Shown here: positions 5,658 through 19,002 of the stretch, piece after piece
Position numbering within the stretch: the first letter of the stretch is position 1
How the letters are laid out: each line of letters opens with the position of its first letter
DNA from: Fermentimonas sp.
GTDB lineage: Bacteria > Bacteroidota > Bacteroidia > Bacteroidales > Dysgonomonadaceae
NCBI GenBank assembly: GCA_015478775.1
Contig: JADMKP010000008.1
Coordinates: forward strand, 434,076-498,075
Reading direction: 5' to 3'
DNA: 64,000 nucleotides
The notes under the pieces: generated by a model
Told to the model about the DNA's origin: nothing
Databases searched by the model: none
Seen by the model: the letters and a program-made list of their open reading frames with translations, nothing else
Made by a program: the position numbers and the translations under genes

Positions 5658-6740
5658 TTAAAATGGTAGATATACCTTTTGTAGCATCTCTTGATACTCC
5701 TTTTCGGCATTGCTCATTGCAGTAATCCCACCTCCACTTCTAAAGTAAAATTTGCCGTTCTCCTTTCCAATATACCTAATTAATACAAACGAATTAAGCG
5801 AATTACCATCAAAATAACCCGCAACTCCTGTATAATAACCTCTTGCTTGTTGTTCCGCATTGCGTATAATATCTAGTGTTGCATTCTTAGGTGCTCCCGA
5901 AACAGAACCAGCAGGCAGTAATTTAAATATGATAGTACCAATCTCATCCAAATATGCATCACCAAGATCGCCCTCAATCTCAGAGCTTAGATGAAGTAGG
6001 TTTTTGCGGTTATTTTTTATTTTATCTATGTACCTGAATTTTTTCACAATTACATTTTTTGATACTCTCGAGAGATCATTGCGTAGCAGATCAACAATAG
6101 TATTATGCTCAGCTTTCTCTTTTTCATCATTCAATATCATTTGTACAGCATCTTTAATATCTGCTTCAATAGTACCCTTCATTGGGTAGGTCGATATCTT
6201 CCCATCGTAAATCTTAACAAAACATTCAGGTGAGAAGCAAACAAATTTATTAGGTACGTAAAGTTTGTATGAAGATGTACTACTGACAAATATATCCTTT
6301 AAAGACATTGTAGTTTTAATAGGTGTTTTAATAGTAAGGTTAGTAAGAAATGAATCACCTCTCCTTAATCCCTCCATAACAATATCAAATCGTTTTTTAT
6401 ACTGTAAATATTCTTCAGGAAATATGTCAAACTTATAATTCTTATCGTAATAATTAACAACAGATTCTTCGGAAAATGAATTGTAGCTTTGTTTATCGAC
6501 CTCAGATTGTCTGAAAAGTAAATTATTATTCTGTTTATTAACATCAGTATCCTCCGGAAAAGATTGATTAGAGTTGTAATTTCCAATACCTTCAACTTCA
6601 AAGAGAATCTCATCATGAAGCATTGGGTTTTCTATAAAAAACCCCTCTTCCATTTCAAAATCTAAACCAAAAAGAAATGGAACTCTTTCTACTCCAGCTC
6701 TATTCATCATAGATTCAATTTCACTACATTTATATATCAT
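5658..6740 (-). CDS. pabB: aminodeoxychorismate synthase component I
   Basis: A 360-residue chorismate-binding enzyme. The catalytic C-terminal half has YPMKGT, whose lysine corresponds to the covalent-intermediate lysine of PabB (PIKGT in E. coli; anthranilate synthases have PIAGT), then TIVDLLRNDLSRV and LLPAGSVSGAPK. It adds ammonia to chorismate to give 4-amino-4-deoxychorismate. Residues about 55-100 form an Asn/Ser/Glu-rich insertion containing three degenerate repeats (separate entry), probably a surface loop. The start ATG at 6738-6740 gives a short N-terminus compared with E. coli PabB, common in the compact Bacteroidota form. It forms a two-gene unit with the downstream aminotransferase. 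Confidence 0.88.
   Translation of the reverse strand: MIYKCSEIESMMNRAGVERVPFLFGLDFEMEEGFFIENPMLHDEILFEVEGIGNYNSNQSFPEDTDVNKQNNNLLFRQSEVDKQSYNSFSEESVVNYYDKNYKFDIFPEEYLQYKKRFDIVMEGLRRGDSFLTNLTIKTPIKTTMSLKDIFVSSTSSYKLYVPNKFVCFSPECFVKIYDGKISTYPMKGTIEADIKDAVQMILNDEKEKAEHNTIVDLLRNDLSRVSKNVIVKKFRYIDKIKNNRKNLLHLSSEIEGDLGDAYLDEIGTIIFKLLPAGSVSGAPKNATLDIIRNAEQQARGYYTGVAGYFDGNSLNSFVLIRYIGKENGKFYFRSGGGITAMSNAEKEYQEMLQKVYLPF
6441..6564 (-). repeat. three degenerate tandem repeats inside pabB
   Basis: Reading the minus strand, three units of roughly 42-45 nt share the pattern CTTTTC..GA..AT.TG..GTT.ATAA. They encode SFPEDTDVNKQN, LFRQSEVDKQS and SFSEESVVN. The repeats stay in frame and lie in the non-catalytic N-terminal part of PabB. 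Confidence 0.55.
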
Positions 6741-6953: not shown

Positions 6954-6984
6954 TTTGTTAGTAATGTTTTTTACTTTTACTTTG
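6954..6984 (+). promoter_or_regulatory. Bacteroidota-type promoter for the leu/ilv operon
   Basis: A TTTG -33 box (6954-6957) is followed after 19 nt by a -7 box TTACTTTG (6977-6984), close to the family consensus TAnnTTTG. The predicted transcript starts near 6990, some 25 nt before the leader-peptide ATG and about 195 nt before leuA. The same -7 variant occurs before ndk. Confidence 0.65.
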
Positions 6985-7014
6985 CAATCAACGAACAAGA
7001 ATTGCTTTAGTGTT

Positions 7015-7077
7015 ATGAATCACAATATAGATATTCTAGTCATTTCTATTCTACTTCTACAAAACAATAGAGGGTGA
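7015..7077 (+). CDS. leader peptide rich in Ile, Leu and Val (attenuator control peptide)
   Basis: A 20-codon ORF, ATG at 7015 and TGA at 7075-7077, with four Ile, four Leu and one Val codon, seven of the nine between codons 7 and 15 (including three consecutive Leu codons). It sits between a good promoter and an intrinsic terminator placed just before leuA. Ribosome stalling on these codons when charged Leu, Ile or Val tRNA is scarce would signal need for the downstream genes, which make all three amino acids. The peptide itself probably has no function after translation. The composition, position and link to RNA structures make this more than a chance ORF. Translation has not been shown. 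Confidence 0.75.
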   Translation: MNHNIDILVISILLLQNNRG

Positions 7078-7135
7078 GACTGGCATATCAAATTAGAAGA
7101 ATCTAAAAACAAAAATAGCGATAACCTTTCTCACC
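7073..7135 (+). promoter_or_regulatory. antiterminator pairing in the leu/ilv leader
   Basis: Segment GGTGAGA (7073-7079), which contains the leader stop codon, is perfectly complementary to TCTCACC (7129-7135) in the 5' arm of the terminator. The two pairings exclude each other. A ribosome stalled on the Ile/Leu codons leaves 7073-7079 free to form the antiterminator; a ribosome at the stop codon covers it and the terminator forms. A second short pairing, CTTCTA (7054-7059, Leu codons) with TAGAAG (7094-7099), could act as an alternative early hairpin. Confidence 0.65.
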
Positions 7136-7154
7136 AAGTGGGGAAGGTTTTTTT
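7123..7154 (+). terminator. attenuator terminator upstream of leuA
   Basis: A 12-bp stem (7123-7134 with 7138-7149, two G-U pairs) with a 3-nt loop is followed by a T run (to 7154). It lies 31 nt before the leuA ATG, so it ends transcription before the structural genes unless the antiterminator forms. Confidence 0.85.
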
Positions 7155-7185
7155 ATATATAAAAATAGAGTATAAAAATATTACA

Positions 7186-8676
7186 ATGGAACGGATTTAC
7201 GTATTTGATACAACGCTTAGAGATGGCGAGCAGGTGCCGGGATGTCAATTAAACACAATTGAAAAAATTCAGATAGCTCAAGCACTCGAATTGCTGGGAG
7301 TAGATATTATAGAAGCCGGGTTTCCGATATCTAGTCCCGGTGACTTTAATTCGATAATAGAAATTTCCAAAGCGGTTACATGGCCAGTAATATGCGCACT
7401 GACAAGAGCTGTTGAAAAAGATATTGAAGTGGCAGCCGAAGCGCTTAAATACGCCAAACGTAAACGTATTCACACCGGAATTGGCACTTCCGATTTTCAT
7501 ATTAGGCATAAATTCAACTCCACTCGTGAACAAATTATTGAACGAGCAGTTAAAGCTGTAACATATGCACGTAATTTTGTAGATGATGTTGAGTTTTATG
7601 CCGAGGATGCAGGAAGAACAGATAACGAATATCTTGCCCAAGTGGTACAAGCAGTAGTAAATGCCGGGGCAACAGTGATTAATATCCCCGATACAACAGG
7701 TTATTGTTTCCCCGACGATTATGGCGCAAAGATTAATTATCTAGCAAATAACGTAAATCTAAAAGGTACTATACTTGCAACCCACTGCCATCAAGATTTA
7801 GGTATGGCAACAGCCAACACAATATCAGGTGTAATTAATGGAGCACGTCAGGTTGAAGTTACCATTAACGGTATAGGTGAACGTGCAGGAAATACATCAC
7901 TCGAAGAAGTTGTAATGGCACTAAAAAGTCACAAAGATAGAGGTTTTGATACAAATATTAATACACAACATATATATTCAACCAGTCGCATGGTTTCCAG
8001 CTTAATGAACATGCCGGTGCAGCCCAATAAGGCAATTGTTGGAAGAAACGCATTTGCTCATTCGTCTGGAATACATCAAGATGGTGTTCTTAAAAATGTT
8101 GAAACGTACGAAATTATCGACCCCAAAGATGTAGGTATAGATGATAATGCAATAGTGTTAACAGCCAGAAGCGGACGGGCTGCATTAAATAATCATTTAG
8201 AGCGATTAGGGGTGAAGCTAGATTCATTTGAACTTGATAAAGTTTATCAGAAATTCCTCGAACTTGCCGATCAAAAGAAGAGCATAAATGACGACGATAT
8301 CCTTATACTTGTGGGTAAAGAAGGTAGGTTAAATCGAATAACAATAGACTTCCTACAGGTGGTATGTGGCATAGGTGTTAGAGATGTTGCAAGTATTGGT
8401 CTTAATATTGCTGGCGAACATTTCGAGGCAACGGCAACAGGCAATGGCCCCGTAGACGCTGCTATTAGAGCAGTAAAAAATATCATACGCCGTGAGATGA
8501 AGATTCAAGAATTCCTGATTCAGGCAATTGATCATGGCAGCGACGATATTGGTAAAGTACATATGCAAGTTGAATATAACGGTAATCATTACTACGGTTT
8601 TTCTGCAAATACCGATATAGTAGCAGCGTCTGTAGAGGCTTACATAGATGCAGTAAACAAGTTCGTAGATAACTAA
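7186..8676 (+). CDS. leuA: 2-isopropylmalate synthase
   Basis: A 497-residue enzyme that condenses acetyl-CoA with 2-oxoisovalerate, the first committed step of leucine synthesis. The DRE-TIM catalytic domain begins [14 protein letters not shown], and has the metal site THCHQDLG and [13 protein letters not shown]. The C-terminal third is the LeuA regulatory domain where leucine binds, with the conserved GNGPVDAA. The ATG at 7186 is chosen because an upstream in-frame GTG at 7138 lies inside the attenuator hairpin and the family N-terminus begins right at [14 protein letters not shown]. It is the first structural gene of the operon. Confidence 0.96.
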
Positions 8677-8733
8677 CAGATAATTTAAAAAGCAACAGCA
8701 AATAATAAATCAATTTTTACTAAATATAATTAT

Positions 8734-10116
8734 ATGAAGACTCTTTTTGACAAGATATGGGATGCACATTCAGTTACAACCATAACTGATGGTCCCACAC
8801 AACTTTATATCGACAGGCATCTTTGCCACGAGGTAACGAGTCCACAAGCATTCGACGGCCTTCGCAAGAGAGGATTAAAGGTTTTCCGCCCTGAGCTGAC
8901 TACACTTACAGCCGACCATAATATTCCAACTTTAGGACAAGAGAGTCCCATTCGCGATAATATTTCACGTTTTCAAGTAGAGACACTGTCCAGAAACTCA
9001 AAGGAGTTCGGTCTCACATACTATGGTTTAGGAAACCCGAAAAATGGTATAGTGCACGTCATCGGTCCCGAAAATGGGTACACCCAACCGGGCATGACAA
9101 TTGTTTGTGGCGATAGTCACACCTCTACGCACGGTGCATTTGGTGCAATTGCTTTTGGTATTGGCACAAGCGAGGTTGAGATGGTGCTTGCAACACAGTG
9201 CATCTTGCAAACCCGACCAAAGACAATGCGCATTAATTTTGAAGGTAAGCTGAGCGAAAATGTAGGCTCAAAAGATATGGCACTTTATATGATTTCGCAG
9301 CTTTCAACAGGTGGTGCCACCGGATATTTTGTTGAGTATGCAGGTGAGGCAGTGCGCAATCTTACAATGGAAGAGCGCATGACACTTTGTAACCTAAGTA
9401 TTGAGATGGGTGCACGTGGAGGTTTAATAGCTCCCGATGAAACCACAATTAATTACATACAAGGACGTGAATTCGCTCCCAAAGGTGAAAAATGGGAAGA
9501 AGCTGTAGCATACTGGAAAACTCTTCACACTGATGAGGGTGCCAAGTTTGATAAAGAGGTAACATATGATGCTACCAAAATACCCCCTATGATAACATAC
9601 GGAACCAATCCTGGTATGGGAATGCCAATCTTTGGCTCAATACCACAACTCGACGAAATAGATGCTGCTGGTAAGATCTCATTCCAGAAGTCGCTCCGTT
9701 ATATGGGCTTCACCCCTGGTCAAAAGCTCGAAGGTAAAGAAATCGACTATGTTTTCCTCGGAAGTTGTACAAACGGTAGAATAGAGGATTTCAGACTGTT
9801 TACCGACTATGTAAAAGGTAAAAAGAAAGCAGATAATGTTATCGCATGGCTTGTGCCTGGTAGCTGGAAAGTTCGCAAGCAGATAAAAGAAGAAGGTCTT
9901 GACACGATACTAGAAGAAGCTGGATTTGAAATACGCCAGCCTGGTTGTTCTGCCTGTCTTGCAATGAATGATGATAAGGTTCCTGCTGGCAAATATGTAG
10001 TTTCTACATCCAACCGTAACTTCGAAGGTCGTCAAGGCCCCGGTGCAAGAACAATATTGGCAAGCCCGTTAGTTGCTGCAGCTGCAGCAGTCAACGGTAA
10101 AATCACTCAACCTTAA
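8734..10116 (+). CDS. leuC: 3-isopropylmalate dehydratase large subunit
   Basis: A 460-residue aconitase-family protein with the 4Fe-4S ligands C345 (in GSCTNGR), C405 and C408 (in GCSACLAMN), at spacing identical to E. coli LeuC. With LeuD it isomerises 2-isopropylmalate to 3-isopropylmalate. In organisms with the citramalate route the same enzyme also converts citramalate to beta-methylmalate, which fits the cimA-like gene two positions downstream. It starts 57 bp after leuA and ends 13 bp before leuD. Confidence 0.97.
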
Positions 10117-10129
10117 TAATTATATTAAA

Positions 10130-10729
10130 ATGGATAAATTTACAACAATAACATCAACATATGTTCCGCTTCCAATTGAGAATGTGGATACAGATCAAAT
10201 AATACCCGCACGCTTCCTTAAAGCCACAACAAGAGAAGGATTTGGCGACAATCTTTTTGCCGACTGGCGATATGAAAAGGATGGAAGCCCTAAAAGCGAT
10301 TTCGTACTAAATAATCCAACATATAAAGGAGAAGTTTTAGTAGCAGGAAAGAACTTCGGAAGTGGAAGTAGTCGCGAGCACGCCGCTTGGGCAATTGGAG
10401 GCTATGGATTTAAGGTTGTTGTTTCTAGCTTCTTTGCCGATATATTTCAAAACAATGCACTAAACAACGGCATACTTCCAGTGGTAGTATCTGATGAATT
10501 TCTCAGTCAACTGTTTGCATCTTCTGATAACGATGCCAATGCAACGGTTACTGTAAATCTTGAAAATCAGATAATAACCAACAACTCAACCGGAGAGTCT
10601 GAATCATTCGAGATAAATTCCTATAAAAAGGAGTGCCTTCTAAAAGGTCTTGATGATATCGATTTTCTGATGTCTAACATGGATAAGATATTGCAATTTG
10701 AGCAACAGCGACCATTTGCATATAAATAA
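10130..10729 (+). CDS. leuD: 3-isopropylmalate dehydratase small subunit
   Basis: A 199-residue swivel-domain protein with [12 protein letters not shown] near the N-terminus and the [12 protein letters not shown] signature that binds the substrate carboxylate. Start chosen at the ATG at 10130: a longer in-frame ORF reaches back into leuC, but the family N-terminus ([15 protein letters not shown]) begins here, 13 bp after the leuC stop. It forms the heterodimer with LeuC. Confidence 0.96.
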
Positions 10730-10776
10730 GGTAAATGGCTAGGTCATAACCCATCGCCTAAAACATTTTGGGAAAT

Positions 10777-12327
10777 ATGAGAAAAATAGAGATAATGGAT
10801 ACCACCCTTCGCGATGGTGAACAAACATCCGGTGTTTCATTCGCAGCGCAGGAAAAGCTGAGCATAGTAAGGCTTTTGCTTGATGAACTTAAAGTAGACA
10901 GGGTAGAGATCGCCTCAGCGCGAGTATCCGAAGGCGAGTTTAAGTCGGTTCAAAAAATGGCTCAATGGGCCAAAAAGAATGGTCATATTGATAAACTCGA
11001 AGTGCTTGGTTTTGTAGATGGAACCACATCATTAGAATGGATATTTAAAGCTGGGTGTAAAGTGGTGAATCTACTTTGCAAAGGTTCAAAAAAGCATTGC
11101 AAATATCAGCTTAAGAAGACTACAGAAGAGCACCTTGGTGATGTTAAACGATGCGTCAACAAAGCCATAGAGATGGGTCTTTCAGTCAACCTCTATTTAG
11201 AGGATTGGTCAAATGGAATGCGCGATTCTAAGGATTATGTATTTCAAATGGTGGATGGGCTAAAAGATGAACCTATTACAAGGTTTATGTTGCCCGACAC
11301 TCTTGGGATATTAAATCCCGATGAAGCCGGTAAGTTCTGTGCTGAAATGATTGAGCGTTACCCCTATCTCCATTTTGATTTTCATGCTCATAACGATTAT
11401 GATCTTGCTGTTGCAAATGTATACGAGGCAATAAAAGCAGGAGTCAAAGGGGTTCATGTTACGGTAAACGGACTCGGCGAGAGAGCTGGTAATGCACCTT
11501 TAACAAGTGTTGCAGCGCTCATACACGATCATTTAGGCTATACAACCAATATGGATGAGACAAAGCTTTATAGCGTAAGTAAGGTGGTAGAGAGCTACTC
11601 AGGAGTGCGTATCCCAAATAATAAACCCGTAATCGGTGATAATGTATTTACACAGGTGGCAGGTATTCATGCTGATGGCGATAAGAAAAAAAATCTATAT
11701 TACAACAATCTCATGCCTGAGCGTTTCGGGCGTTACAGAGAGTACGCATTAGGCAAAAATGCAGGGCGCTCAAACATCATAAAAAATCTAGAGACGTTAG
11801 GAATTGAGCTTAATGATGAGGCTACAAAAAAAGTAACTGCTCGAATCATCGAGCTTGGTGATAAGAAAGAGTTAGTAAGCATTGACGAGCTGCCATACAT
11901 TGTATCAGATGTTTTAAAGAATGGCAACGATTACAAAGATATTAAAATGCTCAATTATTCGTTGTCTCTCACCGATGGGTTGAGACCAACCGCAACCTTA
12001 AAGATATCAATCAAAGGCAAAGTTTATCAAGAAACCGCTGCAGGAGATGGTCAGTATCATGCATTTTCTAAAGCGATGTTTAAGATATATAGACAGTTAT
12101 CTAAGCCGGTGCCCGAGCTTATAGATTATGAGGTTGTAATACCGCCCGGTGGTAAAACAAATGCATATGTGCAAACAATTATTACATGGAAGTTTGAAGA
12201 GAAAATATTTAAAACCAGAGCGCTTAGTATCGACCAAACAGTGGCTGCTATTAGTGCTACAATGAAGATGCTTAATATGCTCGAGAGTGGGAATATCCCC
12301 AATATGAATTATTTGCCACTTCCATAG
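10777..12327 (+). CDS. cimA: probable (R)-citramalate synthase, Leptospira type
   Basis: A 516-residue DRE-TIM protein ([38 protein letters not shown]) with a C-terminal LeuA-like regulatory domain. It is often labelled a second 2-isopropylmalate synthase. Its sequence instead follows Leptospira interrogans citramalate synthase closely (VDRVEIASARVS, LGFVDG, YLEDWSNG, LPERFGR, YALGK). Residues corresponding to the Leptospira pyruvate pocket, recalled as R16, D17, L81, L104, Y144, E146 and T179, are present at a constant offset of 4: R12, D13, L77, L100, Y140, E142, T175. It would condense acetyl-CoA and pyruvate, allowing threonine-independent isoleucine synthesis through LeuCD and LeuB. The ATG at 10777 is preferred to a TTG at 10768. 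The function is inferred, not proven. Confidence 0.8.
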   Translation: MRKIEIMDTTLRDGEQTSGVSFAAQEKLSIVRLLLDELKVDRVEIASARVSEGEFKSVQKMAQWAKKNGHIDKLEVLGFVDGTTSLEWIFKAGCKVVNLLCKGSKKHCKYQLKKTTEEHLGDVKRCVNKAIEMGLSVNLYLEDWSNGMRDSKDYVFQMVDGLKDEPITRFMLPDTLGILNPDEAGKFCAEMIERYPYLHFDFHAHNDYDLAVANVYEAIKAGVKGVHVTVNGLGERAGNAPLTSVAALIHDHLGYTTNMDETKLYSVSKVVESYSGVRIPNNKPVIGDNVFTQVAGIHADGDKKKNLYYNNLMPERFGRYREYALGKNAGRSNIIKNLETLGIELNDEATKKVTARIIELGDKKELVSIDELPYIVSDVLKNGNDYKDIKMLNYSLSLTDGLRPTATLKISIKGKVYQETAAGDGQYHAFSKAMFKIYRQLSKPVPELIDYEVVIPPGGKTNAYVQTIITWKFEEKIFKTRALSIDQTVAAISATMKMLNMLESGNIPNMNYLPLP

Positions 12328-12454
12328 TAGTTCAAGCGTTATGATTTAACATCACTCTCATTTTACTATTCAAAGTACAGAAAATCAAAACAAATAAGTC
12401 TGAAATAAAAACAAAACATATTTTAGACAACAAATAAAAAAATATATTAAACTA

Positions 12455-13525
12455 ATGAAATTGAATATAGCGGTATTACCCGGAGACGGTATTGGTCCCG
12501 AGATCATGAAGCAGGCATTAAAAGTTACAGAGGCAATATGCAGCAAATTTGGGCACGAGTTCAATTACAAAGAAGCTATTGTTGGTGCTAATGCAATTGA
12601 TGCCACGGGCGATCCATATCCTGCACAAACTCACGAGCTATGTATGCAGAGTGATGCAATACTCTTTGGAGCAATTGGCGATCCTAAATATGATAACGAC
12701 CCCAACGCTAAGGTTCGTCCCGAGCAAGGTTTACTTCGTATGCGTAAACAACTGGGTCTCTATGGAAATATCCGCCCCGTAATGACATTCCCTTCACTTC
12801 TTCATAAATCACCACTACGTGCCGATTTAGTTGAAGGTGCCGATTTTGTATGTATAAGAGAGCTCACCGGAGGCATTTATTTTGGTAGCCCTCAAGGTCG
12901 TAGCGAAGATGGTAATACAGCATATGATACATCTGTATATACACGAGAAGAAATTGAACGCGTCTTACATCTTGCATATAAATTTGCCGGACAGCGCCGA
13001 AAAAAGTTAACCGTTGTAGATAAAGCAAACGTAATTGCAACTTCACGACTTTGGAGACAGATAGCACAAGAAATTGCTCCACAGTATCCTGATATCGAAA
13101 CCGATTATCTTTTTGTAGACAATGCAGCAATGCGCATAATTCAATGGCCAAAAAGTTTTGATGTGATGGTTACAGAAAACCTATTTGGAGATATTCTTAC
13201 AGATGAAGCATCAGTAATTACTGGCTCAATGGGCTTGCTCCCTTCCGCTTCAATGGGAATTCATACATCTCTTTTCGAACCAATTCACGGTTCATATCCA
13301 CAAGCAGCCGGCAAAGATATTGCTAATCCTGTTGCAATGATTCTTTCGGTAGCTCTAATGTTTGAGTATGCATTCAATCTAGCAAAAGAAGGAGCACTTA
13401 TACGAGAAGCTGTAAATGCCAGTCTCGAAGAAGGTGTTGTAACGGAAGATATTGCCGATGGAGGAAAAATATACAAGTTGAGCGAAGTAGGTGAGTGGAT
13501 TACCAATTATATTAAAAACATATAA
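12455..13525 (+). CDS. leuB: 3-isopropylmalate dehydrogenase
   Basis: A 356-residue NAD-dependent beta-decarboxylating dehydrogenase. It shows the N-terminal [11 protein letters not shown], substrate-binding arginines in the [21 protein letters not shown] region, VDKANV with the catalytic lysine, and the NAD-binding [18 protein letters not shown] loop. It oxidises and decarboxylates 3-isopropylmalate to 4-methyl-2-oxopentanoate, and could also turn beta-methylmalate into 2-oxobutyrate for isoleucine. A 127-bp gap before it holds no obvious terminator, so it is taken as part of the operon. Confidence 0.96.
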
Positions 13526-13610
13526 TATTGACTCCAAATGCATTTGTTTAAAATTCATGCAAAAAAATAGAAGACGTCTTTATTATAATATGTAGTAAGT
13601 TAAACTATAA

Positions 13611-15455
13611 ATGAATAAAATTACTAATAAAATAGGCAATTTACGAAGTGCAACCAGCACTCAAGGAAGGCGAATGGCAGGTGCCAGAGCTTTGTGGCAT
13701 GCCAATGGCATGACCAAAGAGCAAATGGGTAAGCCCATTATTGCTATAGCCAACTCATTTACTCAGTTTGTGCCGGGTCATGTTCACCTTCACGATATAG
13801 GTCAGATGGTGAAAAAAGAGATTGAGAAGCTCGGTTGTTTTGCTGCCGAATTTAATACAATTGCTGTTGATGATGGAATTGCCATGGGTCACGATGGTAT
13901 GTTATACTCATTGCCCTCTCGCGATCTAATTGCAGATTCTATAGAGTATATGGTAAATGCTCATAAAGCAGACGCACTAATCTGCATTAGCAATTGCGAT
14001 AAGATAACACCCGGAATGCTAATGGCTGCGATGCGATTAAATATCCCTGCCATCTTTGTTTCGGGGGGACCCATGGAAGCGGGTAAGATTGGAGATGAGC
14101 AGGTAGATTTAATAAATGCTATGATTGAATCTGCCGATGATTCTGTGTCCGACGAGCGTGTATCTCAGCTTGAGGTTTCGGCATGTCCTACCTGCGGATC
14201 ATGCTCTGGCATGTTTACTGCAAATTCAATGAACTGCTTAAATGAAGCAATTGGTCTTGCACTTCCGGGTAATGGCACTATTTTGGCTACTCACTTAAAT
14301 AGAAAAGAGCTGTTTGTCAGAGCTGCAAAACAGATTGTGAAAAATGCCGAGAAATATTATTTCGAAGGCGATGAAACCGTACTTCCTCGTAATATTGCAA
14401 CTCGTCAGGCGTTTTTAAATGCCATTACTCTTGATATTGCTATGGGTGGTTCAACAAATACCATTCTTCATACATTGGCAATTGCTCATGAGGGTGAGAT
14501 AGATTTTAATCTCGATGATATAGATGCACTTTCCCGTCTCGTTCCTTGCGTTTGTAAAGTTGCACCTAATTCAAAAGATTATCACATTCAGGATGTTAAT
14601 CGTGCAGGTGGAATAATGGGTATATTAAAAGAGCTTGCCAATGCAGGCTTGCTCGATACTTCGGTTTACAGAGCCGATGGACTTACACTTGCCGAAGCTA
14701 TAGATAAATATGATATTACAAAAGAGGTGCCGGATGATGAGGCGCTAGATATTTATTCCTCGGCACCAGGCAATAAACGTAATCTGGTAATGGGGTCGCA
14801 AAATGCACGTTATAAAGAACTAGACAGCGACAGGCAAAATGGTTGCATCAGGAGCGTTGAGCATGCTTATACCAAAGATGGCGGCTTAGCAATCCTAAAG
14901 GGCAATATTGCTCATAATGGTTGTGTAGTAAAAACTGCCGGTGTAGATGAAAGTATATGGAAATTTACCGGAAATGCCAAAGTGTTTCACTCACAAGATG
15001 ATGCTTGCATTGCAATTCTTAAGAATGAGGTGATTGCAGGTGATGTTGTGGTTATTCAGTACGAAGGACCAAAAGGTGGGCCCGGTATGCAAGAGATGCT
15101 TTATCCCACATCATATATCAAGGCAAAACACCTTGGCGAGAAGTGTGCACTTATTACCGATGGCAGGTTCTCTGGGGGCACATCTGGTTTGTCTATTGGT
15201 CACATCTCTCCTGAAGCTGCTGCGGGTGGCAATATTGCACTTGTTATAGATGGTGATACAATTGAAATTGATATTCCAAATCGCACTATCAATATAAAAA
15301 TTAGCGATGAGGAACTAAAAAATAGAAGAACTGAGGAGGAGGCAAAAGGCGTGAATGCGTTTAAGCCTTTGCGCGATAGAAAAATTTCTCAGGCGTTACA
15401 GGTCTATTCTCACTTTGTGAGTTCGGCCGATAAGGGAGCTATAAGGATAATTTAA
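13611..15455 (+). CDS. ilvD: dihydroxy-acid dehydratase
   Basis: A 614-residue IlvD/Edd-family iron-sulfur dehydratase. Cluster and Mg ligands are in [12 protein letters not shown] and [19 protein letters not shown], with [15 protein letters not shown] in the C-terminal domain. It dehydrates 2,3-dihydroxy-3-methyl-valerate and -butyrate to the 2-oxo acids, a step shared by valine, isoleucine and leucine synthesis. The 85-bp gap before it holds two perfect palindromes (CAAATGCATTTG at 13535 and AAGACGTCTT at 13571) of unknown meaning. IlvB follows after 24 bp. Confidence 0.97.
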
Positions 15456-15479
15456 TATTCACAACTAAAGAGTTTAATT

Positions 15480-17246
15480 ATGAACAAAGATATTCAAACT
15501 CAAGCAACAACTACTTCTTCTGGAAATAATTCAGAGGGTGGTAAAGAAATAATGCAAGGTAGCGAAATACTAATTCGTTCTTTGCTTGCCGAAGGTGTTA
15601 ATACAATGTTTGGCTATCCCGGAGGTGCAATTATGCCGGTATTCGATGCACTATATGACCATAAAGATAAGATCAGACACATCTTGGTGCGACACGAGCA
15701 GGGTGCAGTTCATGCTGCTCAGGGCTATGCAAGAGTTTCAGATAAAGTAGGAGTGGCATTAGTTACTTCTGGTCCTGGTGCAACAAATACGGTTACCGGA
15801 ATCACCGATGCAATGATGGATAGTACTCCCATGGTAGTTATATCCGGTCAGGTAGCCTCCGGGCTGCTAGGCTCAGATGCATTTCAGGAAGCGGATGTTA
15901 TAGGCGTAACTTTGCCAATCACGAAATGGGCATATCAAATAAGACGTGTTGAGGATATCTCATGGGCGGTGTCAAGAGCTTTTTATATAGCTTCAAGCGG
16001 TCGCCCTGGCCCCGTACTGCTCGATATTGCCAAAGATGCTCAGATTAATAGTTGTGAGTACTCCTATAGCAAAACCGATTTCCTTCGCAGTTATCAACCA
16101 AGTCCCAAAGTAGAGTATGATAAAATTGCAGAGGCTGCAGAAATTATCAATAATGCAAAAAAACCCTTTGCATTGGTGGGACAGGGTGTAGTTCTTGGCA
16201 GTGCCGAGGAGGAGCTCAAGCAATTTCTCGAAAAATCTAATATTCCGTTTGGTTCAACAATACTAGGACTGTCTGCCATGCCAAGCAATCATCCACTCAA
16301 CTTCGGTATGTTGGGTATGCATGGTAATGTTGCACCTAATATGATGACAAACGAGTGTGATGTATTAATTGCAATTGGTATGCGTTTTGACGATAGGGTA
16401 ACGGGCGACTTAAAGACATATGCCAAACAAGCAAAAGTAATTCATTTTGATATCGATCCTGCTGAGATTGATAAGAACGTAAAAACTACCGTTAAGGTTA
16501 TCGGTGATGCAAAGGAGACTCTTCCTTTGGTTACACAGCAACTTCAAAATATGACTCGCGGTGAATGGATAGAAAAATTCAATCCTTATGTAGAAAAAGA
16601 ATACGATTGTGTTATAGATAGTGAACTTTATCCTCAAGTGGGAGAAATAAAGATGGGCGAAGTGATTAACAAAGTAACCGAGGCAACCCATAACAAGGCT
16701 ATATGTGTAACCGATGTTGGTCAGCATCAGATGATGAGCACCCGTTATTTCAAATTTACACAGTCACGTAGTATGGTAACATCAGGTGGATTAGGAACTA
16801 TGGGCTTTGGTCTACCCGCCGGTATTGGTGCTAAGTATGGTGCTCCCGACAGAACCGTATGTATCTTTGTAGGCGATGGTGGTTTGCAAATGACAATGCA
16901 GGAGTATGGCACAATTATGGAGTATGACCTTGATGTTAAAATAATACTACTTAATAACAACTATCTGGGTATGGTGCGACAGTGGCAAGAACTTTTCTTT
17001 AAAGAACGTTACTCCGAAACTCATCTTAAGAACCCCGATTTCGTAAAGGTTGCAGATGCTTATAATATTAAGGGACGTAAAGTTTCACATCGCGAAGATC
17101 TTGATGATGCTATCAGTGAGATGTTAAATCATAAAGGAGCATTTCTTCTTGAGGTGGTTGTTGAGACAAAAGGGATGGTTTATCCTATGGTACCCTCGGG
17201 TGGATGTGTTACAAATATACTTCTAGGCAATGGTCATACGTTGTAA
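15480..17246 (+). CDS. ilvB: acetolactate synthase large subunit
   Basis: A 588-residue thiamine-diphosphate enzyme: an N-terminal PYR domain with the activating glutamate in VRHEQGAVHAA, a central FAD-binding domain, and a C-terminal PP domain with GDGGLQMTMQE and downstream Asn for ThDP/Mg. It makes 2-acetolactate and 2-aceto-2-hydroxybutyrate. The first 24 residues are a low-complexity Thr/Ser/Asn-rich extension before the conserved QGSEILIRSLLAEGV; an alternative ATG at 15552 would remove it. It is followed after 44 bp by the regulatory subunit gene. Confidence 0.96.
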   Translation: MNKDIQTQATTTSSGNNSEGGKEIMQGSEILIRSLLAEGVNTMFGYPGGAIMPVFDALYDHKDKIRHILVRHEQGAVHAAQGYARVSDKVGVALVTSGPGATNTVTGITDAMMDSTPMVVISGQVASGLLGSDAFQEADVIGVTLPITKWAYQIRRVEDISWAVSRAFYIASSGRPGPVLLDIAKDAQINSCEYSYSKTDFLRSYQPSPKVEYDKIAEAAEIINNAKKPFALVGQGVVLGSAEEELKQFLEKSNIPFGSTILGLSAMPSNHPLNFGMLGMHGNVAPNMMTNECDVLIAIGMRFDDRVTGDLKTYAKQAKVIHFDIDPAEIDKNVKTTVKVIGDAKETLPLVTQQLQNMTRGEWIEKFNPYVEKEYDCVIDSELYPQVGEIKMGEVINKVTEATHNKAICVTDVGQHQMMSTRYFKFTQSRSMVTSGGLGTMGFGLPAGIGAKYGAPDRTVCIFVGDGGLQMTMQEYGTIMEYDLDVKIILLNNNYLGMVRQWQELFFKERYSETHLKNPDFVKVADAYNIKGRKVSHREDLDDAISEMLNHKGAFLLEVVVETKGMVYPMVPSGGCVTNILLGNGHTL

Positions 17247-17290
17247 TAGAGTTTAAAAGTTTAGGATTTTCATTTAATAAATCAGTAGAT

Positions 17291-17851
17291 ATGAACGATA
17301 ATAAAACATTATATACTATCACAATATTCTCTGAGAATACGGTGGGCGTACTTAATCAAATCAGTACAATATTCACTCGCAGGCAGTTAAATATAGAAAC
17401 ACTCTCAGTGTCACCATCCGCTATAACAGGTATTCACAAGTTTACTATTACCACATTCTCAAACGACGAGGAAGTGATGAAAAAGCTTACCAGGCAAATA
17501 GATAAACGGGTAGATATACTAAAGGCATATTACAATACCGACGATGATCTTGTTTTTCAGGAACTTGCACTTTATAAACTCTCCACAGAAAAGGTTATGG
17601 AGCATGGTACAGTTGAGTATTTGATCAGAAAGTATAACGTACGTGTACTTGAGATTACAAGCGATTGCATTGTATTTCTAAAAGCTGGTCATTATGCCGA
17701 AACTCAGGGCTTATTTGAGGAGCTGGCCGATAAAATTGGTGTACTACAGTTTGTTCGATCAGGCAGAATTGCAATTACTAAGTCTAAGGTAGAGCGACTT
17801 AGCGACATGTTAGCTAAACTAGAGGTTGAAGGTGTACAATCGGCATTCTAA
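17291..17851 (+). CDS. ilvN: acetolactate synthase small (regulatory) subunit
   Basis: A 186-residue protein with an N-terminal ACT domain (about residues 5-78; TITIFSENTVGVLNQIS...NIETLSVS) and the ALS_ss C-terminal domain. It binds the large subunit, raises activity and gives feedback inhibition by valine or related amino acids. The ATG at 17291 is chosen over an upstream in-frame ATG at 17204 that overlaps ilvB and adds residues not found in the family. Confidence 0.95.
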   Translation: MNDNKTLYTITIFSENTVGVLNQISTIFTRRQLNIETLSVSPSAITGIHKFTITTFSNDEEVMKKLTRQIDKRVDILKAYYNTDDDLVFQELALYKLSTEKVMEHGTVEYLIRKYNVRVLEITSDCIVFLKAGHYAETQGLFEELADKIGVLQFVRSGRIAITKSKVERLSDMLAKLEVEGVQSAF

Positions 17852-17955
17852 ATATTAATAATATCAAGAATTAAATAGAAGTTTATAAATTTATAATTAA
17901 ACCTTGTCATTCGACCTTTTATTAGGGAAAGTGAGAGGATAAAAGCTTAAAAAAT

Positions 17956-19002
17956 ATGGCAAAAATGAATTTTGGCGGTGTAGAAGAAAATGTTGTAACC
18001 CGCGAAGAGTTTCCGTTGAGTAAAGCTCAGGAGGTGATGAAGGATGAGATAATTGCTGTGATAGGGTACGGAGTGCAAGGTCCTGGGCAATCATTAAACC
18101 TTCGTGATAATGGCTTTAACGTTATCGTTGGACAACGCAAAGATAGTAAGACATGGGATAAGGCGGTTGCCGACGGATGGGTGCCAGGTGAAACACTCTT
18201 TGAAATTGAAGAAGCTTGCGAACGTGGCACTATAATTCAGTACCTGCTTTCCGATGCAGCACAGATACAATTGTGGGATACTGTAAAAAAACATCTTACA
18301 CCTGGCAAAGCTCTATATTTCTCTCACGGATTTGGAATAACCTACAAAGAGCGCACAGGTATTATTCCTCCAGCCGATGTAGACGTTATTTTGGTTGCAC
18401 CAAAAGGTTCGGGCACAAGTCTTCGCACAATGTTTCTCGAAGGTCGTGGCTTAAACTCAAGTTACGCCATCTTTCAAGATGCAACAGGAAGAGCATTCGA
18501 GAGAGCGGTTTCATTGGGGATAGGAGTAGGCTCGGGCTATTTGTTCGAAACAGACTTTAAGCGTGAAGTATTCTCAGATCTTACAGGCGAGCGTGGCTCA
18601 CTTATGGGTGCTATTCAAGGATTGATGTTAGCGCAGTATGAAGTTCTTCGTGAGAACGGACATTCACCTTCAGAAGCATTCAACGAAACTGTTGAAGAGC
18701 TTACACAATCGCTTATGCCTTTGTTTGCACAAAACGGAATGGATTGGATGTATGCCAACTGCTCAACAACCGCACAGCGTGGTGCATTAGATTGGATGGG
18801 ACCATTTCATGATGCAACAAAGCCAGTTTTCGAAAAGCTTTATAAGGAAGTTGCAAATGGCAATGAAGCTCAGCGTTCTATCGATAGCAACTCGCAACCC
18901 GATTATCGCGAAAAGCTTGAGGAGGAGTTAAAAGCACTTCGTGAAAGCGAAATGTGGCAAACGGGTGCCGTTGTACGAAAACTTCGCCCCGAAAATAATT
19001 AA
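17956..19002 (+). CDS. ilvC: ketol-acid reductoisomerase
   Basis: A 348-residue class I (short) KARI. The Rossmann motif is GYGVQGPGQSLNLRDNGF and the cofactor loop follows VGQRKDSKTW, where the Arg and Ser suggest preference for NADPH. The knotted C-terminal domain has the metal-binding Asp/Glu of SDLTGERGSLMGAIQG. It rearranges and reduces acetolactate to dihydroxyisovalerate and the isoleucine equivalent. It is the last gene of the operon. In many Bacteroides a fatty acyl-ACP thioesterase gene lies between ilvN and ilvC; here there is only a 104-bp gap. Confidence 0.96.
   Translation: MAKMNFGGVEENVVTREEFPLSKAQEVMKDEIIAVIGYGVQGPGQSLNLRDNGFNVIVGQRKDSKTWDKAVADGWVPGETLFEIEEACERGTIIQYLLSDAAQIQLWDTVKKHLTPGKALYFSHGFGITYKERTGIIPPADVDVILVAPKGSGTSLRTMFLEGRGLNSSYAIFQDATGRAFERAVSLGIGVGSGYLFETDFKREVFSDLTGERGSLMGAIQGLMLAQYEVLRENGHSPSEAFNETVEELTQSLMPLFAQNGMDWMYANCSTTAQRGALDWMGPFHDATKPVFEKLYKEVANGNEAQRSIDSNSQPDYREKLEEELKALRESEMWQTGAVVRKLRPENN

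Follow-up and report, generated by a model that had tools for sequence, protein, structure and literature searches.

The nine-gene leu/ilv block of this Fermentimonas contig is preceded by a short open reading frame (ORF) rich in Ile, Leu, and Val codons and by an intrinsic terminator, which raises the question of whether a translating ribosome decides if the block is transcribed. We analyzed the window (the whole stretch of 64,000 nucleotides) together with the corresponding regions of related genomes. The leader is very probably a ribosome-mediated transcription attenuator that would sense the charging of Leu, Ile, and Val tRNAs. The first-pass annotation had proposed this reading from the window, and conservation, covariation between strands 2 and 3, and codon placement now support it.

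The block spans 7186-19002, and NCBIfam models identify its genes as leuA to ilvC:

7186-8676, plus strand: leuA, 2-isopropylmalate synthase (NCBIfam)
8734-10116, plus strand: leuC (NCBIfam)
10073-10729, plus strand: leuD, ORF as listed (NCBIfam match from residue 20)
10768-12327, plus strand: citramalate synthase/LeuA-like gene (NCBIfam NF042433, E 1.1e-194)
12455-13525, plus strand: leuB (NCBIfam)
13611-15455, plus strand: ilvD (NCBIfam)
15480-17246, plus strand: ilvB (NCBIfam)
17204-17851, plus strand: ilvN (NCBIfam)
17956-19002, plus strand: ilvC (NCBIfam)

The true leuD start likely lies about 57 bases inside the listed ORF. The second LeuA-like gene has its best match in a Leptospira-type model for citramalate synthase, at 647.8 bits and under the curated cut-off of 950; this match suggests a pyruvate route to isoleucine. 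The nine genes would be carried on a single transcript, and the leader would regulate the leu/ilv block as a whole.

The region ahead of leuA contains the following elements:

6954-6984, plus strand: Bacteroidota-type promoter, TTTG (6954-6957), 19 bases, TTACTTTG (6977-6984)
7015-7077, plus strand: leader peptide ORF MNHNIDILVISILLLQNNRG, stop TGA at 7075-7077, read from the sequence
7031-7041, plus strand: strand 1, pairing with 7078-7088 with one U.C mismatch at 7035/7084 (minimum free energy [MFE] fold, RNAalifold on 35 loci, and pair counts)
7054-7059 with 7068-7073, plus strand: inner stem (MFE fold, RNAalifold on 35 loci, and pair counts)
7073-7079, plus strand: strand 2, GGTGAGA, the 5' half of the antiterminator, overlapping the leader stop codon
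7123-7154, plus strand: intrinsic terminator, stem 7123-7134/7138-7149 with 12 pairs and a loop of 3, T run 7148-7154
7129-7135, plus strand: strand 3, TCTCACC, common to antiterminator and terminator

Most of these elements had been named in the first-pass annotation. The leader ORF was confirmed base by base, with Ile, Leu, or Val at 9 of its 20 codons (I5, I7, L8, V9, I10, I12, L13, L14, and L15). GGTGAGA and TCTCACC lie where they had been placed, the former over the stop codon, and the 12-bp terminator at 7123-7149 with its T run is present. The complement of strand 2 had been assigned entirely to the 5' arm of the terminator; this holds for 7129-7134, while base 7135 falls in the loop (the arm is 7123-7134). 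The Bacteroidota -7 promoter consensus is TAnnTTTG, and TTACTTTG is one base away from it; the promoter described as consensus is kept in all 35 same-genus loci, with a -7 box one base off. A search of the genome at the DNA level found the attenuator leader in a single copy.

One description needs amending. The design had been called very compact, a description from which strand 1 was missing. The MFE of 6990-7160 is -38.2 kcal/mol, compared with -24.65 ± 3.33 for shuffled sequences, and the MFE fold contains the terminator together with a hairpin formed by 7031-7041/7078-7088 and the inner stem. We take 7031-7041 to be strand 1 in the classical attenuator layout, in which hairpin 1:2 would hide strand 2. 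Once strand 1 is added, the leader would have the usual three competing hairpins (1:2, 2:3, and 3:4).

These elements suggest the following sequence of events. Polymerase would start near 6990, and a ribosome would enter the 20-codon leader. If Leu, Ile, or Val were short, the ribosome would stall at one of the nine control codons (7027-7059), where it would mask or cut off strand 1 with its front edge just short of strand 2. Strand 2 could then pair with strand 3 while strand 4 has yet to be transcribed, and polymerase would read on into leuA-ilvC. If all three amino acids were plentiful, the ribosome would reach the stop codon inside strand 2 and cover that strand; alternatively, it would depart after the stop, and hairpin 1:2 would form. 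In either case strand 3 would pair with strand 4, and transcription would stop near 7154. From the observed elements, their conservation, the strand 2/3 covariation, and the placement and choice of codons, we infer leader translation, pausing, termination efficiency, and a starvation response.

We folded the leader with modeled ribosomes. The front edge of a stalled ribosome lies about 14 bases past the first base of its A-site codon, and this distance was the setting in the model. When a ribosome occupied any of the control codons I5 to L15, hairpin 2:3 had a probability of 0.97-0.997 just before strand 4 emerged. With a ribosome at the stop codon, 2:3 was impossible and 3:4 reached 0.98. With no ribosome, 1:2 stood at 0.42 and 2:3 at 0.57 when strand 4 was not yet made, and 1:2 stood at 0.98 and 3:4 at 0.97 when it was present. 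For the full-length leader at equilibrium, the terminator won at every ribosome position (2:3 at most 0.011). Since equilibrium favors the terminator regardless of the ribosome, the outcome of attenuation must be kinetic.

Conservation within the genus was read from 35 Proteiniphilum/Fermentimonas loci in 33 genomes, obtained by searching 61 genomes for LeuA (47 with a match) and reading the regions upstream. One genome, with 8% contamination, supplies three of the loci, and four more same-genus genomes had no usable locus. In all 35 loci the leader ORF runs for 20-22 codons to the identical TGA stop, starting with ATG in 34 and GTG in 1. Leader insertions occur in six rows, and every one is 3 or 6 bases long, which argues for translation of the leader. 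Across the genus, reading frame, Ile/Leu/Val codons, and paired segments are all kept, as is the promoter (TTTG, 19 bases, TTnCTTTG; 35/35). Of the genus leaders, 2 of 35 have a Shine-Dalgarno-like four-base word in the 20 bases ahead of their start, as do 8 of 52 leaders from elsewhere; the window's leader has none there. A scan of named genomes for the leader pattern returned 21 stretches labeled Proteiniphilum, Fermentimonas, Bacteroidales, or Porphyromonadaceae, 19 of them apparently within the 35-locus set.

Strands 2 and 3 (7073-7079 and 7129-7135; 7 pairs) are invariant in all 35 loci, and strand 4 alternates A/G opposite U, a combination expected if strand 3 needs two partners. Every terminator pair forms in 35/35 loci; covariation of the terminator within the genus did not exceed that of shuffles (180 of 500 as high). 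For hairpin 1:2, compared within the genus, 94.0% of cells are paired, as against 41-53% in slid registers. A single pair changes on both sides (7059/7068, from G-C to A-U in two rows), a count that was reached by 58 of 500 shuffles.

Among 247 genomes of the order, 98 contained LeuA at the chosen cut-off, and 99 loci outside the genus were read. A joint test called for a terminator of at least 8 pairs, a complementary strand 2, and an ORF of 12-45 codons ending at strand 2, with at least six Ile/Leu/Val codons making up at least 35%; five rounds of dinucleotide shuffles and the reverse complements served as controls. All 35 same-genus loci passed (shuffles 1/175, reverse complements 0/35), as did 45 of the 99 other same-order loci (0/495 and 0/99). 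Over both groups of loci, the controls passed in 1/670 cases for shuffles and 0/134 for reverse complements. The anatomy is therefore not due to chance, as loci pass far above both controls. The remaining 54 of the 99 loci failed. In 17 of these, leuA is preceded at about 110 bases or less by the end of a same-strand ORF of 100 or more codons, and several others keep an Ile/Leu-rich leader ORF with no terminator detected; among the 45 passing loci, 3 have a same-strand ORF of at least 60 codons that ends within 120 bases.

Judged from the aligned loci, strands 2 and 3 covary outside the genus. In 16 alignable loci, 95.4% of strand 2:3 cells pair, compared with 90.5 ± 0.8 in shuffles and 44-66% in slid registers. 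Both-sided changes occur in 4 of the 9 pairs of these loci (shuffle mean 1.1, slid registers 0-2), giving compensated variants such as GGAAGTG/CACTTCC and GGGAGTG/CACTCCC; further pair types in the 16 loci were not above shuffles (358/500). The conservation in related genomes that the first-pass annotation would lead one to expect is found, with the leader ORF, codons, and paired segments kept within the genus and strands 2 and 3 covarying beyond it. The overlap of the stop codon with strand 2 is true in the window and not fixed elsewhere: in the 45 order-level passing loci, the leader stop begins at positions ranging from 8 bases ahead of the first base of strand 2 to 24 bases past it. We dropped it as a special feature because its position varies outside the genus. 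Beyond the order, 40 of the 93 non-window genomes with a match were read at leuA, and 0/40 passed; the test covered leaders adjacent to leuA, and in 21 of the 40 the end of a same-strand ORF of 100 or more codons lies no more than 150 bases before that gene. Taken together, these alignments and counts provide strong comparative evidence for the putative attenuator.

The placement of the control codons is also informative. Across the 45 loci, Ile/Leu/Val codons crowd the stretch from 47 to 12 bases upstream of strand 2 and become rare over the final 11 bases, with distance taken from the first base of the codon and loci selected for codon content, not for this edge. Their share is 0.66 at 30-41 bases, 0.71 at 24-29, 0.88 at 18-23, and 0.58 at 12-17, then 0.12 at 6-11 and 0.06 at 0-5; 12 of the 45 loci do have at least one such codon within 11 bases. 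In the window, the last Leu codon starts 16 bases ahead of strand 2. This edge in codon density fits a stalled ribosome that leaves strand 2 free.

Codon choice is biased as well. In the 35 genus leaders CTA makes up 49.6% of 141 Leu codons, and across 30 leuA genes 3.6% of 968; it is less rare in the operon of the window itself (12.8% of 297 Leu codons). In the 20 order-level genomes with both parts, CTA accounts for 36 of 92 leader Leu codons versus 16 of 626 in leuA, with a greater share in the leader in 17 of the 20, and TTA/TTG are depleted in the leaders (17/92 versus 268/626). In modeling described in PMC1183508, the Salmonella leu leader has CUA as its control codon, and UUA and UUG are predicted to be poor ones.

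Within the genus, the leader DNA is unusually invariant: synonymous identity over codons 7-15 is 97.5% (2827/2900 comparisons) versus 39.6% in leuA (34974/88353), computed on the 26 loci with the standard block among 30 with a complete leuA. Such invariance could be expected of a ligand-binding riboswitch, or of a leader bound by a protein or by tRNA, as in a T-box, with the ORF incidental. We consider this very unlikely. The ORF strand also pairs in hairpin 1:2, which accounts for part of the invariance; this pairing and codon choice probably share in causing it. Outside the genus the leader sequence is lost, and the Ile/Leu codons and their placement are kept. No Rfam family explains the leaders in the window, at 20 leuA loci, or at 10 his/trp/thr loci. 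In the window and 20 relatives, neither Leu_leader (RF00512) nor T-box (RF00230) matched at the gathering score, and the best sub-threshold leader match was Phe_leader, at 18.1 bits against a threshold of 55. We dropped the T-box or riboswitch reading on these grounds, with no Rfam match and with codons that outlast the sequence outside the genus. A DUF805 RNA (RF03081) lies at 269-337 of locus L076, in a relative, where it precedes leuA by about 1.2 kb and is separate from the leader. The Ile-Ser-Ile codons at 7042-7050 are mostly unpaired in the model, yet their synonymous sites are nearly fixed in the genus; 1:2 pairing and codon choice account for this only in part.

The same genome carries leaders before other amino acid operons. 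The leader preceding hisG, MKANRFHHHHFHTCIQAS, contains HHHHFH; that preceding trpB, MNILTNGYWWRYLQHIKS, contains WW; and that preceding thrA, MQRLYSTYFTTTMTMTPWGVM, contains TTTMTMT:

Locus L162, 529-473, minus strand: His leader MKANRFHHHHFHTCIQAS before hisG, with terminator and strand 2 present
Locus L164, 1306-1362: Trp leader before trpB, with a 13-pair terminator at 1411-1440
Locus L163, 1038-1103: Thr-rich leader before thrA, ending in MTPWGVM

Among relatives, a leader with three or more adjacent His codons precedes hisG, together with a terminator, in 21 of 22 loci. A strand 2 of at least 6 pairs was found in 20 hisG loci; it lies near the leader end in all 15 genus loci, and its place is not always plausible outside the genus. 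At least two adjacent Trp codons and a terminator precede trpB in 18 of 23 loci, and nearly all same-genus leaders contain NGYWWR. The search of these 23 loci gave no convincing strand 2, and we do not claim the trpB leader as a worked-out attenuator on its terminator. Short Thr-rich leaders precede thrA in 16 of 24 readable loci. The MTPWGVM end coincides with an inverted repeat, ATGACCCCTTGGGGGGTTAT (locus L163, 1080-1099), and this ORF-end repeat, with a weak T tail, is the sole terminator-like element by the leader in some loci. As the tail is weak, control may differ from ordinary attenuation, and the thrA leader is likewise not claimed as a worked-out attenuator. TPWGV recurs in another family (locus L228).

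That each leader is rich in the amino acid of its own operon speaks for tRNA sensing. It also bears on arrest by the nascent peptide, in which DILVISILLL would stall the ribosome that makes it, with a metabolite and not tRNA charging as the signal. The high conservation of the leader peptide in the genus would suit such a mechanism, to which we give scarcely any credence: outside the genus it is the amino acid class and the choice of rare codons that are conserved, not the peptide, and the other leaders match their own amino acids as tRNA sensing predicts. A constitutive or growth-linked partial terminator before leuA with a fortuitous small ORF is hardly credible either, strong and fully paired in 35/35 same-genus loci though the terminator is, as strand 2 is not only conserved but also covaries with strand 3, codon placement has a sharp edge relative to strand 2, and the ORF frame survives insertions. 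We therefore keep to the attenuator reading.

Attenuators of this kind have been described in other phyla. In Salmonella typhimurium and E. coli, leuL encodes a leader peptide with Leu codons that, through alternative hairpins, controls the leu genes. Leu control codons and alternative hairpins are common to that system and ours; here, in contrast, Ile and Val codons are mixed in, the block holds ilv genes, and the leader has no covariance-model match. The ilvGMEDA and ilvBN leaders mix Ile, Leu, and Val codons, but they belong to a different phylum, leuA leads the operon here, and the likeness is one of description, not sequence. Flavobacterium psychrophilum, of the same phylum, belongs to a different order. 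Its amino acid operons are preceded by structured 5' regions, reported in 2021 with "strong clues" of leader-peptide attenuation, and the main-text passages name no leu/ilv leader sequence (PMC9723704). The remark in the first-pass annotation that attenuators are much less documented in Bacteroidota is accordingly fair, with the qualification that signs of them had been reported from this species. Passages of PMC1183508 list ilvGMEDA and ilvBN among the enterobacterial attenuators of branched-chain operons, show that the Salmonella leu leader also uses CUA Leu codons, and cite Carter et al. for the finding that CUG in place of CUA cut its sensitivity. In Corynebacterium, another phylum likened here by description and not by sequence, a leader ORF or attenuator is reported to regulate the branched-chain operon ilvBNC (PMC10272879, PMC11857589).

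Reports from closer relatives are few. Small ORFs reminiscent of leader peptides were noted in B. thetaiotaomicron (PMC7366714, in part), and the sections of PMC3766115 consulted list only two RNA regulogs for Bacteroidaceae. A 2010 survey, in the portion available, gives leader-peptide systems as known from Proteobacteria and Actinobacteria only, and then adds Firmicutes (PMC2965389). The passages seen of PMC8305728 and PMC13323073 contain nothing on attenuators or coupling in Bacteroidota, and those of PMC4833913 and PMC8632094 no leu/ilv leader. None of the titles and abstract openings listed, mostly from outside subscription journals, describes a leu/ilv attenuator in Bacteroidales. The mechanism was already known; the leu/ilv leader is a well-supported example of it, new as far as this literature shows. 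A comparative study of attenuation by Lopatovskaya et al. from 2010 may list Bacteroidetes cases, and any priority for this leader is accordingly provisional. Many relatives share the attenuator anatomy; descriptions of it from this order are scarce.

Tentatively, and with somewhat less than even confidence, we suggest that ribosome-mediated attenuators evolved independently in Bacteroidales (for leu/ilv and his, probably for trp, and possibly for thr), that they work without Shine-Dalgarno starts and came by convergence to the CUA control codon of enterobacterial leu leaders, and hence that transcription and translation would be tightly coupled in this phylum. The literature searched held no measurement of such coupling in Bacteroidota, and an attenuator that recurs across Bacteroidales offers a ready test of ribosome-polymerase coupling there. 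The leaders would also allow a test, in an unrelated phylum, of the theory developed for E. coli that among Leu codons CUA is the one best suited to control (PMC1183508). More directly, the attenuator predicts how these bacteria set branched-chain amino acid synthesis. The intergenic region that holds its promoter is common to a divergent gene, pabB (aminodeoxychorismate synthase component I; 5658-6740, minus strand).
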